DNA of 33,716 nt from Bacteriovoracaceae bacterium. Lineage in GTDB: Bacteria > Bdellovibrionota > Bacteriovoracia > Bacteriovoracales > Bacteriovoracaceae. The notes under the pieces are model-generated. The model was not told where the DNA came from. It saw only the letters and a program-made list of their open reading frames with translations, and searched no databases. The DNA is taken from the NCBI GenBank assembly GCA_019752535.1, contig JAIEMA010000027.1, positions 1 through 33,716 on the forward strand, in the 5' to 3' direction. This document shows positions 13,296 through 31,505 of this stretch, one piece after another; the stretch's first letter is position 1, and every line of letters begins with the position of its first letter. The translations under genes were made by a program, and so were the position numbers.

Positions 13296-16200
13296 ATGCG
13301 TTTATTGGGACTCCTCTTTTTGATTATTTTCGCCACCGCTTGCGGGGGAAAAAATTCAAACACCAATATCAAAGTCACCACCTCTGCATTATTTGGTGGC
13401 TCTGCGGCCTTGCAAAATATCTCCGAAGGCGGCCTCATGCTTTGGGGTGTGAATGACAAAGGGAATCGCTTCGGACAAACACTCGAAGATGCTGACACCA
13501 TAAATCTTGATCTACCTAATGGGACTTGGACCTTCTATGCTGTTGCGTGGGACAACGCCACCAATGATCCATTGCTTGCAAGCACTGGTTTGAAGTGTGC
13601 AGAAAGCGTCCCCACGCAGCTTGCGGGCACGCAAGTGAACGTTGCTCTCGCTGTCTCTGCAACAACTTGTGCCAATGATATTTTTCGCGGCTACGCCTCC
13701 AGTGCCAACAGCGGCACGATCAATGCTCAATTGTGCGAAAATCTCTCCGGTGTGACGGCCTACAACCATGTTTGTAGTGATGATCGAATCACAGCAGGGG
13801 CTAACTGGAAAAGTGATAAAGTCCCAATGATGTCGGTGAAGGTGACCCTTCCCAATTATCTCAATAATATCGACGTCCCAGGTGGAATTTCGCGCTGTAT
13901 GGTGATGCCATCCAATCAAGATGGCTCTTGGACCAATGTCACCTCAATGAAATTGCCGATTGGCGATGTCGCTTATCCAGCGAAGTCTCCGTTTCGTTTG
14001 CGATTAGAATTTTTTCCTGGAAATAACACCTGTGATTTAACTGGGACTGCGAGAGGAAGTATTACTCGCATTTTGCCCAATGGACTTCTTTCACCCATTT
14101 CACCGATCAAGACATTCCATAACAGTGGCCAGCACTATACCTTTCTTTCGATTAGCGACAACGAAATTTGCAATGGTCGCACGGCGGTTTATACAGATGT
14201 CGCTGGGGCGAGAAACTTTGCTGGTGGTGCAGGAACAGTAGGACATCCCTATTTGATTTGCTCTCCTGAGCAGCTCCTTTCGATGCATGACTTAGTCAAT
14301 GCGACGACGTACTATTATCGCTTATCAGCGAATATCAATTTGAATCCTTACTCAAAAGGTGTCACGACCGCGACGTTACCTAGCGACAGTGATTGTTGGG
14401 AAGAGGGACAGAACTGGATGCCCATAGGCCATTCCTACGCTGCACCTAGCGCTTGTACGGCATCGGTCACGGGTTTCACAGGATCTTTTGACGGTAATGA
14501 TCATAGCATCTCCAATTTACGCATCAAAAAAGATAACTCTGACGAGGTCGGCTTTATAGCGCGTCTTTCAGCTCCAGCAGCAAGAGTGTTTCGAGATCTC
14601 ACATTTATTAACGCTGAAGTAGAGGGACAAGCAAAAGTTGGAGCTTTATTTGGAAGTTGCACGGCGACTGGAAACCAATTAATTGAAAATATAAGAATTA
14701 CAAACTCGAGGATAAGAGCTCGTGATAATGCTGGCAGCTCTTATGTGGGTGCTCTGTTCGGTGATGGGACTCTTGTTGATGTAAATAAAATTTTTATCAG
14801 TGGTGGCAGTGTAGAAGGTGATGGAAGTTATATTGGCGGTGCCTTTGGAAATCTTTCATCCTCAACTAAGCTAAGTAACGTTTTCGTCAATACTCAAGTC
14901 AGGGCGAATAATTATAATTCAGGCTCCACTCATACGGGAGGAATTGGAGCAAAGTTTGTCTCCACTTCACTTGCTGGTAACATAGACTCGCTTTCATATG
15001 AAGGGATTATTACTACCGGAAGTACAAAAGTGGGTGGTTTGTTTGGAGAATTAGGGGATACAAATGCTGGTAAAAATCTTTCAAACTTTTATTCAAAAGC
15101 AGCGATTACGACATTAAACACAACTTCTAGTAATATGGTTGGTGGTTTCGTTGGAAAAAACCTTTTCAATAAAGCGATGATCAACGGGTATTTTGCCGGT
15201 CATGTTTTGGATTTCTGTAGTGCTGGCTGCGACGTGGGTGCCTTAATTGGAGATTATTCTGGAGGCACACCGACAGGAAGTAGTGATATTTATTATCTCT
15301 CAGATAATCAGCCAACTGATGCAGGATGGGGGACGAGTGCATTTGCGACTTCTTCATTCAGCAACGCTGACAACGTAGGCTTATACCTTACTGGAACGTT
15401 GACAACTTTTGAATCTGGACCGTGGGTCCATCAAGCCGGAGATACTCCAAGGTTAACATTAGAGCAGCATCCTTGTGCATTGACTATAAACTCTGCAGGA
15501 TTGGCGGGACAAATTATAGCTGGGCGTGGAGGTGCGAGCAATCCACTAGTCATTTGTAAAAAAGAGCAACTCTCAACGATAGGTGCTCTTGGAAGTGGAA
15601 AATACGTCTCAATTGTTGGAGCCGTGAATCTTACCGGCAGCTTTACTTCACCCAATATCCCATCAGGTGTGACCCTCAGTGGAGAGAGAGGGTTAGTTTT
15701 TGGGTATACAAATAATTTAAGTGGAACAAGTTCTGGCAATCTTGCTCCTTTTGCTACGAACAGTGGAACAATAAAAAACCTCGATATGGCCAATATCAAA
15801 GTAAGCGTTTTAGCACCGTCATCTACTTCTTCTGTTTCAGGTGCAGTTTATATAAATAATGGAACGATAGATAACATGAGTGTGATCTCAGGAGAGATCA
15901 AGCATAGTGCTTCATCAACGGCCTATGCCTCAGGTATGGTCTACCAAAACAATGGCACAATTAAAAATTCTAAGATGTCTGCCGTCGTAGGTGGAATAAA
16001 TTATGTAGCGGGCATAGCTGCTTTTAACCTAGGTCATATCTTAGATTCTGAGGTCGAGGGAGCTCTCTTTCAATCAACTGCCTCATCTTCATCTGTTTTT
16101 GCGGGAATTGCCTTACAGAACGGATCCTCTGCCACCATCAAAAGATCAGTGGTGAGAAGTAAAATGAACACTTCTTACTCCCTTGATGATTCTTCAATGG

Positions 16201-17066
16201 TTGTGAGGCAAAATCTTGGTCTCATCCAGGATGTCGAAATCAGCAGAGAAGCCAATTGGCGAATTAATAGTTTTGGTGCAACAACGGGACTCGCAAGTGT
16301 GGCCGTCACTAATAGCGGAACTATTAATAGAGTTCTCATGAATGGATTTTTACTTGATACTCAGAATGCCACTTCTACGATTGGCGTGAATAACAGTGGC
16401 AAGCCTGTCTTAACTAACACAGGCACAGTGACGGGTGTCTCTTGGACGATTCCTTCGGGGCGTTTGATTCAAAATATGGTTGGCAACGGATCGAACTATA
16501 CCTGTTCCTCAGGTGTGCTCAGTGTCACAAATTATCCTTCTTCTCCATTCAATAACTCAGCCGCTTACTGGGATTCAACTACTGCTAATAATGATCTCAG
16601 TACGAATAATAAATATGTATGGGTTGTGGCCGAATCCAATGGATTTGTTTCTGTGGCTAGGGCCTTGGACAGTCAAACCAGTACTGCTCTAAAGTTGGAT
16701 GTGAATCCTTCTGATTGCTCAACCCTTGCGACAAATGGAATGAATGTTTACATCATTCAGGACTACTCCTCTTCAGATCCGACCGCGATTGCGGATTATA
16801 CGACAAGCCCATACAACGGCTACATCATTCCAGGATCCATTTTAGGTGCGGGCTCGCCGTCTTTTGGAAATGGAGTCACGTTGTTTCCAGTTGGCAGCCC
16901 ATGGAGAACTAGCGGAGTCGTGTTAGATGAAACGGTCACCGCAGATATGGATTTAATCATAGATTATTATGAAGCCATTTTAACTGGCCAGTCTCCTGCG
17001 AGTCCCGCGATATGGACCATAGAAGATGGTGGCAGCAAAATGGGTCTCTTCAGCATTAATAACTAA
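13296..17066 (+). CDS. Giant repeat lipoprotein, GLUG-like beta-helix repeats
   Basis: The 1256-residue protein begins with a lipoprotein signal (MRLLGLLFLIIFATAC, lipidated Cys16, next residue Gly), so it should reach the outer membrane. GAGG precedes the ATG. Residues 20-300 form a Cys-containing globular region. A domain then opens with GHPYLICSPEQL (316-327), followed by GLUG-type repeats marked by VGALFG (448, 484), IGGAFG (513), VGGLFG (579), VGGFVG (615) and VGALIG (647). A second unit opens with NPLVICKKEQL (749-759) and carries repeats of the NNGTIxN and NSGTIxx type to about 1045. Such proteins are surface-exposed adhesin-like right-handed beta-helices; adhesion is inferred. The stop overlaps the fumarase stop by 4 bases. 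Confidence 0.85.
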   Translation: MRLLGLLFLIIFATACGGKNSNTNIKVTTSALFGGSAALQNISEGGLMLWGVNDKGNRFGQTLEDADTINLDLPNGTWTFYAVAWDNATNDPLLASTGLKCAESVPTQLAGTQVNVALAVSATTCANDIFRGYASSANSGTINAQLCENLSGVTAYNHVCSDDRITAGANWKSDKVPMMSVKVTLPNYLNNIDVPGGISRCMVMPSNQDGSWTNVTSMKLPIGDVAYPAKSPFRLRLEFFPGNNTCDLTGTARGSITRILPNGLLSPISPIKTFHNSGQHYTFLSISDNEICNGRTAVYTDVAGARNFAGGAGTVGHPYLICSPEQLLSMHDLVNATTYYYRLSANINLNPYSKGVTTATLPSDSDCWEEGQNWMPIGHSYAAPSACTASVTGFTGSFDGNDHSISNLRIKKDNSDEVGFIARLSAPAARVFRDLTFINAEVEGQAKVGALFGSCTATGNQLIENIRITNSRIRARDNAGSSYVGALFGDGTLVDVNKIFISGGSVEGDGSYIGGAFGNLSSSTKLSNVFVNTQVRANNYNSGSTHTGGIGAKFVSTSLAGNIDSLSYEGIITTGSTKVGGLFGELGDTNAGKNLSNFYSKAAITTLNTTSSNMVGGFVGKNLFNKAMINGYFAGHVLDFCSAGCDVGALIGDYSGGTPTGSSDIYYLSDNQPTDAGWGTSAFATSSFSNADNVGLYLTGTLTTFESGPWVHQAGDTPRLTLEQHPCALTINSAGLAGQIIAGRGGASNPLVICKKEQLSTIGALGSGKYVSIVGAVNLTGSFTSPNIPSGVTLSGERGLVFGYTNNLSGTSSGNLAPFATNSGTIKNLDMANIKVSVLAPSSTSSVSGAVYINNGTIDNMSVISGEIKHSASSTAYASGMVYQNNGTIKNSKMSAVVGGINYVAGIAAFNLGHILDSEVEGALFQSTASSSSVFAGIALQNGSSATIKRSVVRSKMNTSYSLDDSSMVVRQNLGLIQDVEISREANWRINSFGATTGLASVAVTNSGTINRVLMNGFLLDTQNATSTIGVNNSGKPVLTNTGTVTGVSWTIPSGRLIQNMVGNGSNYTCSSGVLSVTNYPSSPFNNSAAYWDSTTANNDLSTNNKYVWVVAESNGFVSVARALDSQTSTALKLDVNPSDCSTLATNGMNVYIIQDYSSSDPTAIADYTTSPYNGYIIPGSILGAGSPSFGNGVTLFPVGSPWRTSGVVLDETVTADMDLIIDYYEAILTGQSPASPAIWTIEDGGSKMGLFSINN

Positions 17067-23764: not shown

Positions 23765-24843
23765 AGACTGAAAAAATTGATTTCATTAAAGGACAGTCAA
23801 CGGCACAGGTTGATTTGTTTTTTAATTTAAAACCTATCTCAGAAGTGGAGAGAGAGGGGCATGAGTCGCTTTATCTCTCTGGCGTCACAAGTGAAGCCCT
23901 TTACACCTCTTATCAAGATCTTTTAGAAGTGATGCCTTGGCTCTATAAGCAAGGGGCGAGAACTTGGTGTGATGTGGGTTGCGGAGTGGGTAGAAGCTGT
24001 TTGCTTTGGTCATGGCTCACTCAAGAGAGAGCGATAGGAATTGAATTAGTGCCAGAGAGAATTGAAGAGGCGAGAGCTGCTTGTCGCTCAAAAAATTTAT
24101 CTCAAATTCATTGGATAGAAGGTGATTTTTCCTCTCCTTCAAGAGCGCTACCGGAGAGTGATGTTTACTTTCTTTATTTGGCCACAGGGCCTCAACTCGA
24201 TGCTTTACTTGCAAAAATAAAAAAACGCTCGACCCCTTCATGGGTCGTTGTCATTGAATCTCACGGTGATTTGAAGCCTCGTCTGCAATGGGAGGCCTGG
24301 TGGCTTGCTCCAACGGCCAATCGCTTCTCACTCAAATCTTTTCGCCATGATCCCTGGGTTCAAGTTTATAAAACCAGGCCTGATCATCCGGTTTTTCATC
24401 TCGAAGATTCATGGGAGACAAAAAGTGGATTGCTGCCTCAGGACTTAGCTCTGCATCCCAACCCACTAGGTTATCTGTTAACTAAATCCTTTTTAAAGAA
24501 TTGGGAGATTGTGATTGATGAGCGAGGAGAAAAGTGGACCATGGAGACTATAGGCCTTGCTTGGCATGACATGAACACAGTTCAAGGTCATCTCCCTCCA
24601 AGGCAAGTCAGTTGGAGTCGAGAGAATATTGGTCTCAGAAGGATTCCCGAAGAAGGTCAATATGCCCAATGGTCAGCATGGAGAAGAGAAGAGCGACTTT
24701 TTTCCTACTTAACTCATCAAGGGATTAGTGGGCAGCGGGTCAAACTGAGAAAGATTATCATTTCTCCCTACGACGAGCTGGAGTTTTCAGACGGTGTGCG
24801 CGTAAAATGGGAAGATATTAAAAAATGGGAAGAATTGAAATGA
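23758..24843 (+). CDS. SAM methyltransferase (DOT1-like core) with extra C-terminal domain
   Basis: TTG 23758 overlaps the previous stop by 7 bases and has AGGA at a fair distance; no better start lies near. Motif I is WCDVGCGVGRS (70-80), the acidic residue after strand 2 is Glu96 (IGIELVPERIEEA), and the later blocks are EGDF (121-124) and VYFLYLAT (136-143). The GVGRS / ELVPE / YFLYL set resembles DOT1-like and related class I methyltransferases. Residues from about 190 to 361 form a Trp-rich second half with no family I recognise. No signal peptide is seen, so it is cytoplasmic. It may modify a product of this operon, but that is inference. Confidence 0.82.
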   Translation: MVETEKIDFIKGQSTAQVDLFFNLKPISEVEREGHESLYLSGVTSEALYTSYQDLLEVMPWLYKQGARTWCDVGCGVGRSCLLWSWLTQERAIGIELVPERIEEARAACRSKNLSQIHWIEGDFSSPSRALPESDVYFLYLATGPQLDALLAKIKKRSTPSWVVVIESHGDLKPRLQWEAWWLAPTANRFSLKSFRHDPWVQVYKTRPDHPVFHLEDSWETKSGLLPQDLALHPNPLGYLLTKSFLKNWEIVIDERGEKWTMETIGLAWHDMNTVQGHLPPRQVSWSRENIGLRRIPEEGQYAQWSAWRREERLFSYLTHQGISGQRVKLRKIIISPYDELEFSDGVRVKWEDIKKWEELK

Positions 24844-25883
24844 AGTTTTTTACTCTTTGCGCTCTTATGTTTTTTTATTCTTGTGCACACAAGATTATTG
24901 CAGATGGGGGACAAGCCCCATTTGAGAAAGAAAAGTATGAGCAACTCTCTCCCTCTGATTTGGCCACCTACGCTCAAACAGTAGTAAAAAAAGAGCAAAG
25001 AGACCCTGATTCAATGTCTCTCAAAGAATTCACGAAAACCAGTGAAGGTGAAATTAGAAAAATTGGACTTCTGATTGTGGAGAGTGAAATCCAACCCTCG
25101 CGCTCAGGACTCGCCACAGAGAGAAGTGTCTATCTCTCTCCTAGAGGAAAGCAGCTTTTAACAGAAGAGCTCTATCACTCTTTTTTTCAGCATCTAAAAG
25201 CTTTAAGCCCCAAGAAAACTCTGCATTTTCTAAAAAGCGCAGATTTATTTCTCTCCTCGAGTTATCGCAGCGCTGGAAGTCCAAGCAATGATTATATCCT
25301 TGCAACCAATGCTCATTTAACTGGCGAAGACGTTTTTTGGAGATTACCAGGAAAAAATATTCCAGAAGCGACGATCCTCACTCCAAGAGGCTTCCAAGAC
25401 ATGAGCATGATTATGATACCTGCTTATGATTTAATTGGTGGGGCCAAACCCAATCAGCACCAATTTCATTGGGTAAATGATGTCTGCAAAGAGATGGGCC
25501 TTGATGCCATAGTCGTTCTTCATATGGATGCCAGCTGGACGCGTGGCTCGATTGATAAAAGATCGAAAGAGGTCATTCCTGAAGAGATGAAGATGTCACT
25601 TAGGGGAAGTGTGATTTATCCCTGGGGTAAATTTCATCAAGCAGTGGAAGCGAAAGGGGAGAAGAGCTTATCGAAGTTAAATATTCCACTTGCCGCCTAT
25701 TCAATTGAAACGCGTTTTCCGATTACTTTGACTGTAGAAGAGAGCGCAGAGACGTTTGAATCAGCAGAAAACAATATCATTAATCCTCTTCGCGCTACAT
25801 TTACAAGTTTCGCTAGTCTTATGTCTTCTCGAATGATGACTGATATTTTGGCCACCCACTCTCAATCTGCTGGAGAGAAATAA
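24840..25883 (+). CDS. Putative lipoprotein of unknown function
   Basis: I start at ATG 24840, which overlaps the previous stop (ATGA); the open frame begins 15 bases earlier without a ribosome site. The front MKFFTLCALMFFYSCAHK looks like a lipoprotein signal, with Cys15 the likely lipid site although FYSC is a loose lipobox. The mature part of about 330 residues is mixed alpha-beta, with KIGLLIVESEIQPSRSG (early strand), LDAIVVLHMDASW (buried strand), and a long C-terminal helix. I do not recognise a family. It is the third gene of a coupled operon and ends exactly where the exporter gene begins. Confidence 0.78.
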   Translation: MKFFTLCALMFFYSCAHKIIADGGQAPFEKEKYEQLSPSDLATYAQTVVKKEQRDPDSMSLKEFTKTSEGEIRKIGLLIVESEIQPSRSGLATERSVYLSPRGKQLLTEELYHSFFQHLKALSPKKTLHFLKSADLFLSSSYRSAGSPSNDYILATNAHLTGEDVFWRLPGKNIPEATILTPRGFQDMSMIMIPAYDLIGGAKPNQHQFHWVNDVCKEMGLDAIVVLHMDASWTRGSIDKRSKEVIPEEMKMSLRGSVIYPWGKFHQAVEAKGEKSLSKLNIPLAAYSIETRFPITLTVEESAETFESAENNIINPLRATFTSFASLMSSRMMTDILATHSQSAGEK

Positions 25884-28395: not shown

Positions 28396-29505
28396 ATGAA
28401 ATCAAAAAATTCCCTTTTTCTTCTTTTGTTTTTCTTAAGTTCAAACGCTTTTGCTGTTGAAGTGGGGGCTTTTGGAAATATAAGAGCGGCGATGACGACC
28501 ATTGATAAGAATGTCACCTATAATGATATCTCCAATCGACCTACCGTTTCAGATGTCTCTCAAGTAGGTGTGAATTTCTCTCAGTCACTTTCTGATCAAT
28601 CTCATGGTTTGGTTCAGGTTCTTTACAATAATACATCTGGAGCGAATCTGGATTTATTTCAAATTAAACACCAACAAGAGGAATACACTTTTAGAATTGG
28701 AAAGCAGAGAATTCCTCTTCTTATGGTCTCAGAACATGTGCAGGTTGCGGCACTTCTTCCTTGGGTGAGTGCACCGACTGAAGTCTATGGAAAGCTGCCT
28801 TTTAATTCATTTAATGGTGCCAGTATTGAGAGAAGATTTGGACCGTTTAGTGCGCTCCTGTTTGCAGGAGATTCAACAGAAACTCTTGTGACTCCTGCAA
28901 CCGGCGCTTCGTATAATGTTAAGACTCGAGGTTTTCATGGGGCAAGGCTTGAACTCAATACAGATATCTCACGCCTCTATATGGGGTATGCTGGATTTGA
29001 TGGAATTGTTGATGTGGCAATTCAAACACCGATCTCCTCAGGCTCGTCTTCAAATGTTATTTATAAGTTCAGAGACAAACTAAATAATTATCAATTGATG
29101 ACAGTGGGGGGGAAACTCAACTGGGGCAAGTATTTCTTGATGTCTGAATACCTCGATGCAAAGAGTAATGGCTTTCTTGTGAAGAGAGAGAGATCTGGTT
29201 ATGTCAGCGTAGGAACAGTCATAAAGGATAAGTGACAACCCATCGCGACAGTGAGTCAAGATTTTGAAATCGAGTCTGAGATATTCCCAAGTCGCACGAC
29301 AAGCTATGATTTAGGGCTTCTCTACTTTTTAGATTCTTCAAGTGTTTTAAAAGCGGGCATCAAGCATGTCGATTATAATGAAAAAACGGCCACTGCTTCT
29401 GCTCTTCCATCGGCAGCAAATACCACGAATAATGGTCTGCCTTTTAGTGCCTCTCCTTCTCAGAATTTTGATGTCTACACGGTGGATTGGTCATTTATTT
29501 TTTAA
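28396..29505 (+). pseudogene. Porin-like outer-membrane protein with one in-frame TGA
   Basis: The reading frame runs 370 codons from a signal peptide (MKSKNSLFLLLFFLSSNAFA) to a C-terminal SFIF, the aromatic end of a barrel. It is broken by a single TGA at codon 280 (29233-29235). On both sides the frame is the same and the protein texture continues: GTVIKDK, stop, QPIATVSQDFEIESE, then DLGLLYFLD and AGIKHVDYN, all strand-like. TGG (Trp) to TGA is the simplest origin, since a Trp at this place suits the KDKWQP context. The protein resembles small substrate-specific porins such as OprO/P-type barrels, which pair with the PstS-like gene nearby. It may be a recent point-mutation pseudogene, a sequencing error, or subject to read-through. 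Confidence 0.75.
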
Positions 29506-29514
29506 AGATACGTT

Positions 29515-30747
29515 ATGAATGAATCACAGCTCTTTCCAAAAAAGTTAACCGTCTCCGCTCTGGTGGTGATGTTTTCTGTTCTCGTTTTTAGCTTTCTCGT
29601 GAATATTAAAAACATAAAGACCTTAACTGACTTCTCAGAAAAGGATGCTCCCTCCATTCAGCTCTCCTGTGCGGCTTCTCGTCTCATAGATGAACTTCAA
29701 TACAGTAATCCAAGTGATGCGATTCAAAAAAGAGAGATTTTACAGCAGACACTCCAGGAAATTGCCACTTTAACGAAAGATGCTCCACTCGTGTCAAAAA
29801 GCTTCCTTGCTGTAAATTCTAGCCATGAACTTCAAGAAAGCCTTGAAAACTATCTTTTAAAAAAGAATGAACAGCTTGAAGAGCAAAGAAAATCCTCAAT
29901 TGCCTCACTTGCTTTAACCATTTTTGGATCTGTCTTCTTTCTTGTCCTGGCCGTTTATATTTATTTTCGCTATCAGCTCAATCTCGCACAACTCAATGAG
30001 ATCTCGTCAAAACTTGAAAATGAAAAAGTGAAGTCAATTCATTCCGCCAAGCTTGCCTCCTTGGGTGAGATGGCCGCTGGAATGGCCCATGAAATTAATA
30101 ATCCACTCGCTGTGATTATTGGTCGAAGCGAAATCTCAATGGAGCAAGCCATTGCAGGTAATTTAACGGAAGCTGAAATTATTAAGACCCTTGGGAAAAT
30201 AAAAGAAGTCGCTTTACGCATTTCTGCGATTGTCACTTCCATGAGAAAAATTTCCCGTGGCACAAAAGAGACCACTCTTAGAAATATGTCTGTCGCTGAT
30301 GTCCTCACCGATGTTACCAATCTCATGAAAGAGAAATTAAAAATGCGAGAGATTGAAATTGATTTCTCCTCAATCCCACAAGAAGTCATGGTAAAGGCCG
30401 ATTTTTCTCTGTTATCTCAAATACTCATCAATTTAATTGGTAATGCTACGGATGCGCTGGCCGAATCGAGTCTTCCTGAAAAAAAGATCTGGATCGAAAC
30501 TCATGTTGCTGATGATAAAGTCGCTATTGCTGTGAATGATAGTGGAAAGGGCATTCCTGCTGATATCGCGACACGCTTATTTGAGCCATTCTACACGACG
30601 AAAGATGTGGGGAAGGGGACTGGTCTGGGGTTGAGTTTATCAAAAACTCTGGCCCATGATATGGGTGGAGATCTTATTTTAAATGCTACCGTTGCAAATA
30701 CTCGTTTTGACGTCATCTTAGAGAAATCTCATGACATTGAAGCCTGA
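29515..30747 (+). CDS. Sensor histidine kinase with short periplasmic domain
   Basis: The 410-residue protein has two membrane spans (about 13-31 and 129-151) enclosing a helical periplasmic sensor of about 100 residues. The kinase core has the H box MAAGMAHEINNPLAV with His192, N box LINLIGNATDA (306-316), G1 DSGKGIP (342-348), F box FEPFYTTK, and G2 GKGTGLGLSLSK (367-378). It has no receiver domain. It lies 10 bases after the porin frame, so it is co-transcribed with it. The separate receiver-cNMP protein at 27126-27896 is a likely partner. The PstS-like periplasmic protein could signal to it, as in other solute-bound sensor systems, but that link is inferred. Confidence 0.93.
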   Translation: MNESQLFPKKLTVSALVVMFSVLVFSFLVNIKNIKTLTDFSEKDAPSIQLSCAASRLIDELQYSNPSDAIQKREILQQTLQEIATLTKDAPLVSKSFLAVNSSHELQESLENYLLKKNEQLEEQRKSSIASLALTIFGSVFFLVLAVYIYFRYQLNLAQLNEISSKLENEKVKSIHSAKLASLGEMAAGMAHEINNPLAVIIGRSEISMEQAIAGNLTEAEIIKTLGKIKEVALRISAIVTSMRKISRGTKETTLRNMSVADVLTDVTNLMKEKLKMREIEIDFSSIPQEVMVKADFSLLSQILINLIGNATDALAESSLPEKKIWIETHVADDKVAIAVNDSGKGIPADIATRLFEPFYTTKDVGKGTGLGLSLSKTLAHDMGGDLILNATVANTRFDVILEKSHDIEA

Positions 30748-30816
30748 AATCTTTACCTCCTCTCACCTGTAAAATCTCATCGTCGGCTATAAGAGGGGAC
30801 TTATTAAGGAGTCTCT

Positions 30817-31476
30817 ATGTTGAAGCCAATCACTTTGTTTTTCGCACTCATTTTTTCTCTCTCCTCTTTTGCGATTGAATCACAAAAGATTCTTGTACCA
30901 AGTGATTTGAGTGAGAAAGAGGGAACTCTTCTCGTCGAAGAGCTTTTTCAATCGGGAAGAAATATTCTTCAATCTTCTACATTTGCTCTGGAGTCCTCTG
31001 AAAAGAGTGCTCAATATCCCTCTGGTGATTTCGTCCTTCTTTGGGGACTTGGTGAGGAGACTTCGAATCAGGATATGACTCAAAGTGAGTACAACAAGAT
31101 TTGGAGAATTATGAACTATCTTAAAAAGATGGGTTTTAGAGTCATCATGAACGTCCGTGCTGAGGGCGCAGATGTGAAAGAAGCTGTTGAAACTGAAGGC
31201 ACTTCTGTGGTGCTTTATTCTGGGCATGGAAACACTTCTGGCTTTTATGACTTCTTCTCTAGAAGAGTAACGTATGATCTTTTCAAAAACAAGGCCAAGT
31301 CAGTCTATCAATTCATTCTCTCGGCTTGTCATGGAACTGAATCTCGAGTGAATTATGCGCCACCAAAAGATATGATTATGTACACGTGGGAAGGACTCAC
31401 CAACACGGATGATCTCATGACATTTTTGATGGGATCATGGACAGGCATGGAAGGAAAAAACTTAGCGATCAGATAA
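30817..31476 (+). CDS. Exported caspase-like cysteine peptidase homologue
   Basis: AAGGAG lies five bases before the ATG. The 219-residue protein has a signal peptide (MLKPITLFFALIFSLSSFA). The core has the caspase-hemoglobinase fold pattern: a hydrophobic strand ending VVLYSGHGNTSG, with catalytic His137, and about 34 residues later a strand ending FILSACHGTES, with catalytic Cys171. The distance and order (His, then Cys) fit clan CD peptidases (caspases, gingipains, CHAT). The mature chain of about 200 residues is enough for one domain only, without pro- or sorting domains. Export of a clan CD protease suggests action on the envelope or another cell. A good bidirectional terminator follows. 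Confidence 0.78.
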   Translation: MLKPITLFFALIFSLSSFAIESQKILVPSDLSEKEGTLLVEELFQSGRNILQSSTFALESSEKSAQYPSGDFVLLWGLGEETSNQDMTQSEYNKIWRIMNYLKKMGFRVIMNVRAEGADVKEAVETEGTSVVLYSGHGNTSGFYDFFSRRVTYDLFKNKAKSVYQFILSACHGTESRVNYAPPKDMIMYTWEGLTNTDDLMTFLMGSWTGMEGKNLAIR

Positions 31477-31479
31477 TAA

Positions 31480-31505
31480 AAAAGGGCCCCATATGGGGCC
31501 CTTTT
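31480..31505. terminator. Bidirectional intrinsic terminator
   Basis: This is a 26-base perfect palindrome. Its core AAAAGGGCCCC is mirrored by GGGGCCCTTTT around an ATAT loop. It ends in TTTT on the plus side, and a run of T lies on the other side when read on the minus strand. It sits between the stop of the caspase-like gene (31476) and the stop of fadA (31509), so it can end both transcripts. Confidence 0.9.

Follow-up and report, generated by a model that had tools for sequence, protein, structure and literature searches.

An intact open reading frame of the plus strand (30817–31476), which begins with ATG and encodes 219 aa, raises the question of whether a Bacteriovoracaceae bacterium exports a minimal cysteine peptidase of clan CD. 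The window, i.e. the whole stretch of DNA analysed, is 33,716 nt in length. An earlier note had called attention to the YSGHG and LSACHG motifs of the predicted protein, and these are present with the numbering it gave: YSGHG comprises residues 134–138 and contains His137, and LSACHG comprises residues 168–173 and contains Cys171. Judged from sequence comparisons, the 219-aa protein is most likely a cysteine peptidase of clan CD type, minimal and exported; it is closest to C25, whose N-terminal half it lacks, and falls in no named family. The features of the locus are shown in Table 1.

Table 1. Features of the 219-aa gene and its flanks (coordinates are those of the window)
Feature	Position	Strand	Basis
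Gene for exported caspase/gingipain-like protein (putative)	30817..31476	+	ORF; homologues in other Bdellovibrionota
Ribosome-binding site AAGGAG, 5 nt before ATG	30806..30811	+	Read from sequence
Putative Sec signal peptide, residues 1–19 (MLKPITLFFALIFSLSSFA)	30817..30873	+	Inspection and hydropathy scan
Conserved catalytic core (putative), residues 62–215, predicted beta1-alpha1-beta2-alpha2-beta3(His)-beta4(Cys)-beta5	31000..31461	+	Family alignments; weak models with the same element order
His137, presumed general base, in YSGHG	31225..31227	+	Invariant in 24 relatives; aligns with catalytic His of C25 and C14
Asp145, invariant	31249..31251	+	Invariant in 24 relatives
Cys171, presumed nucleophile	31327..31329	+	Invariant in 24 relatives; single Cys; aligns with catalytic Cys of C14 and C25
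Trp191, candidate clan CD S1-pocket aromatic	31387..31389	+	Invariant in 14 short-form relatives; not in long form
Perfect 13-bp inverted repeat, terminator-like, between convergent genes	31480..31505	.	Sequence

A histidine kinase gene (29515–30747; HisKA and HATPase_c) lies 69 nt upstream of the open reading frame. No sigma-70-like promoter was found on the ORF strand between the two genes, and therefore it is possible that they are co-transcribed. A link with the kinase was considered and rejected, as the arrangement is absent at the relatives' loci examined, beyond a general kinase similarity at one of them (L009). On the other side, the inverted repeat comes after the stop codon and before a convergent gene, which from a reading of its sequence we take to be thiolase-like. 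Elsewhere in the window, several proteins that are exported or large have no Pfam match; these are encoded at 24825–25883, at 28396–29505 (of which the scan omitted 29251–29505) and at 13296–17066, the last being a 1256-aa lipoprotein-like protein.

The 219-aa protein belongs to a family that is unnamed in Pfam and NCBIfam. Matches are found in four of 59 related genomes, all within two genera of its own bacterial family, and a scan of genome contigs returned Bacteriovoracaceae/Halobacteriovorax together with one metagenome-assembled genome labelled Proteobacteria, which is of the same genus as judged by genome G002. Searches with family profiles covered the Bdellovibrionota, and the distribution is stated within that phylum. 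The first such search gave a match in 15 of 369 genomes. Members of the size class of the 219-aa protein, termed here the short form, are present as 14 intact copies in 13 of the 369. A profile made from these 14 copies also retrieves larger proteins, about 360–890 aa in length, which make up the long form, and a profile made from the long form only returns short-form members in turn (G166, 1.2e-9; G355, 6.7e-8; G342, 8.9e-7). The two forms are homologous, because reciprocal profile searches find each other. G002 carries two forms, and some genomes have two or three long-form genes. The long-form relatives (L078–L118) constitute an unnamed exported family, several with conserved extra cysteines and often with HS or HA in place of HG. 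No relative of the 219-aa protein was found in phages, plasmids or viral contigs, and an anti-phage defence library gave no match.

In the alignment of 24 relatives, where identity drops to ~10–15%, His137, Asp145 and Cys171 are the only invariant residues, and Y180 is nearly invariant. A set of invariant residues limited to these three looks, in this alignment, like an active site. No cysteine other than Cys171 occurs in the 219-aa protein, and most short-form relatives likewise have only its equivalent; it is therefore not a disulfide cysteine, and an invariant thiol that stands alone in an exported protein suggests a catalytic role. The pattern HG-x(27,45)-C-x-G occurs in 0.065% of 200,000 shuffles of the protein, which alone matches it among the 51 window ORFs of >=100 aa. 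The Gly next to the catalytic His is conserved in clan CD (PMC4357240), and HG is found in the 219-aa protein and in all of its short-form relatives. Many long-form proteins have Ser, Ala or Asn instead of this Gly. Clan CD enzymes also have a conserved aromatic residue over the S1 pocket, on the loop after strand 5 (PMC4357240), and Trp191 could be this residue.

The protein appears to be exported. Inspection and a hydropathy scan of residues 1–19 reveal K3, a hydrophobic core and S-x-A before residue 20. Every relative checked has a hydrophobic export-type segment at the N-terminus, and some have a lipobox (L011, L012 and L021). The earlier note had described a minimal exported protein in which no sorting or adaptor domain is visible. 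No such domain is recognizable, and the export signal recurs family-wide, but the term ‘minimal’ applies to the short form only, as relatives of 360–890 aa exist. Its further view that a small exported caspase-like protein is unusual needs qualifying, since there is precedent: in a published survey, 46 of 398 single-domain bacterial caspase homologues have one N-terminal helix, which may be a signal peptide (PMC3501461).

Family models by themselves give little. The proposed search with models of C14, C25 and CHAT brought none over its cut-off, and no Pfam or NCBIfam model at all reaches threshold with the 219-aa protein, the NCBIfam output being noise. The sole clan CD hint in Pfam is a sub-threshold match to Peptidase_C25 (PF01364; 13.5 bits vs a cut-off of 23, E=0.044), which pairs residues 113–168 with model positions 215–267. 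Other members of the family also have sub-threshold Pfam matches, two to C25 and two to C14 (C14 E about 0.05). For the 219-aa protein itself, Pfam gives no match to C14 (PF00656) and CHAT (PF12770) gives none at E up to 10; CHAT is not found in this genome. Sequence and profile searches of the PDB yielded nothing significant. An ancestral effector caspase that came up at E=1.1 in the search of solved structures is at noise level and was discarded.

Comparisons between profiles go further. The C25 and C14 domain sets were drawn from the same phylum. With hhalign, the short-form core scores 31.6 against C25 and 29.4 against C14, and the maxima over 100 column shuffles each are 19.3 and 18.7. 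The whole 25-member core is weaker against C25, its score there being matched by 1 of 100 shuffles. As shuffles destroy natural alpha/beta patterns, real background ORFs were added. As a group, C25 and C14 domains outscore the 164 ORFs used (Mann–Whitney p=1.5e-7 and 6.5e-6, where independence is overstated in that domains of the same family are related). The top background ORF scores 27.7 and the best clan CD domain 31.9, and because these values are close, no single comparison is decisive. In the printed alignments His falls on His, and for two domains, L060 (C14) and L055 (C25), Cys falls on Cys as well.

Clan CD enzymes have the caspase–haemoglobinase fold, in which strands in the order 2-1-3-4 are accompanied by helices, with His at the end of strand 3 and Cys at that of strand 4. 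AlphaFold models of the full protein and of a trimmed core, run with the sequences of eight relatives, both had a pLDDT of about 42. These low-confidence models have the succession strand-helix-strand-helix-strand(His)-strand(Cys), an order compatible with the clan CD core, and His137 and Cys171 are both located after predicted strands. A Foldseek search of the PDB with the weak core model, at pLDDT 42, returned nothing meaningful, a clan CD match included. The clan CD His–Cys pair of the earlier note thus stands with respect to invariance of the two residues and to profile similarity above chance with C25 and C14, but the caspase fold is not confirmed at a pLDDT of ~42. As to ‘caspase-like’, the similarity to C14 is above chance, but the best link is with C25 (gingipain) and not with the caspases proper.

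It may be asked if the protein has another fold altogether, with an independent His/Asp/Cys site such as that of a thiol hydrolase or an acyltransferase, and if the likeness to clan CD represents convergence of short motifs. The low pLDDT is in keeping with this, as is the confinement of the profile similarity to about 30–90 columns around the motifs; in addition, the invariant Asp145 is not clan CD-defining. The similarity, however, includes a predicted strand and helix before His and, for each of two clan CD families, exceeds the null scores, and the His–Cys spacing matches that of C25. Another fold is considered improbable. A cysteine peptidase is the most likely activity, because there is a lone invariant Cys, an invariant His and a match to two clan CD families.

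The closest of the known systems is C25. C25 proteins share with the 219-aa protein a hydrophobic strand followed by SGHG and a short motif around Cys. The spacing of His and Cys is 34 in the 219-aa protein, which fits the 31–36 found in C25 of the same phylum. However, the 219-aa protein could accommodate no more than roughly half of the C25 model (374 positions), with the N-terminal half missing, and C25 proteins of the phylum are mostly 500–3300 aa in length. C25 is abundant in the same bacterial family and occurs in 26 of 59 related genomes; the present genome itself encodes two C25 proteins, both larger (G000:C1:85550-86629 and G000:C23:47965-48963), with open frames of 2475 and 535 aa.

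The C14 group (metacaspases and orthocaspases; PF00656) shows SGHG and a Cys motif that align together with those of the 219-aa protein, and single-domain C14 forms with an N-terminal helix or a signal peptide are known (PMC3501461). Pfam matches of the family to C14 are sub-threshold only, however, and the His–Cys spacing in same-phylum C14 is 42–55. No C14 match was found in this genome. A third system is the sporulation protease YabG, which was proposed for clan CD via a His–Cys pair, without sequence similarity to other families (PMC12445089). As described, it is comparable as a cysteine protease put forward for clan CD on such a pair, but YabG is sporulation-specific and belongs to endospore formers.

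The short form has also decayed in places. Two genomes, G064 and G066, have decayed copies at a conserved site. The broken genes, at L026 in G064 and at L034:7280-7609 in G066, adjoin NUDIX-like and CarD-like genes, and an intact copy in G061 (L030) is situated beside the same two genes. Together with the patchy distribution, such decay suggests that the family is dispensable and that its role is tied to a niche.

Large exported proteins are found near some members. In two distant lineages (L010:8510-12282 and L032:8429-11353), two exported proteins of unknown function, one of ~800 aa and the other of ~440 aa, adjoin a family member, and in three genomes of a third lineage the ~800-aa one is within ~4 kb of long-form members. 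The ~800-aa neighbour was rejected as a conserved operon partner, because it is common where no family member is present (50 of 369 genomes) and this genome lacks it. The few lineages with such a neighbour within ~4 kb nevertheless bear on a different explanation, i.e. that the protein, while clan CD-like in fold, does not act as a general peptidase, and either cleaves only itself or one partner as a maturation enzyme, or in some lineages binds without cleaving. The small size, the presence in 15 of 369 genomes by the first profile and the decay at a conserved site would all agree with this, and long-form member L114 has Gly where His is expected. It is nonetheless an unlikely explanation: His and Cys are invariant in 24 of 24 aligned members, and the large neighbour is both common where the family is missing and absent here.

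The 219-aa protein is thus best explained, and with fair probability, as a small Sec-exported clan CD-type cysteine peptidase, periplasmic or extracellular, that resembles the catalytic half of C25. The peptidase would leave the cytoplasm by the Sec route and act in the periplasm or extracellularly. Its fold would be similar to the C25 catalytic half without the N-terminal half. His137, at the end of the third core strand, would activate Cys171, at the end of the fourth, and Cys171 would then attack a peptide bond in its substrate, which may be an envelope, prey or self protein. Asp145, on the loop after His, would be needed for the site, and may shape it or orient the substrate or the histidine. 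Specificity in clan CD depends on the P1 residue.

Perhaps the peptidase is a predation effector that is released into or onto prey, where it degrades prey proteins. This is a claim about role and is compatible with a small exported clan CD-type peptidase. The genome is in the Bacteriovoracaceae group, which includes known predators, and a putative export signal is present in the protein; on the other hand, most genomes of the phylum are without the family, and we regard a predatory role as rather doubtful. On a broader scale, exported clan CD-type peptidases with an invariant His–Asp–Cys site may make up a superfamily that is centred on the Bdellovibrionota, a phylum rich in predators; it would have radiated there and would serve to process proteins of the envelope or of prey. 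It would consist of a short form of about 210–380 aa and a long form of about 360–890 aa, both outside Pfam and NCBIfam. This is put forward tentatively, as an idea with less than an even chance.

The kind of enzyme is known, and small size and export alone are not new (PMC3501461). What appears to be new is a compact Bdellovibrionota His–Asp–Cys family with a long-form branch. Should the 219-aa protein prove to be a peptidase, few exported enzymes of clan CD would be smaller, and the clan would gain another family. To our knowledge, many secreted hydrolases of Bdellovibrio-like bacteria are uncharacterised. As a peptidase, the protein would represent a compact candidate for envelope or prey-protein processing in these bacteria.
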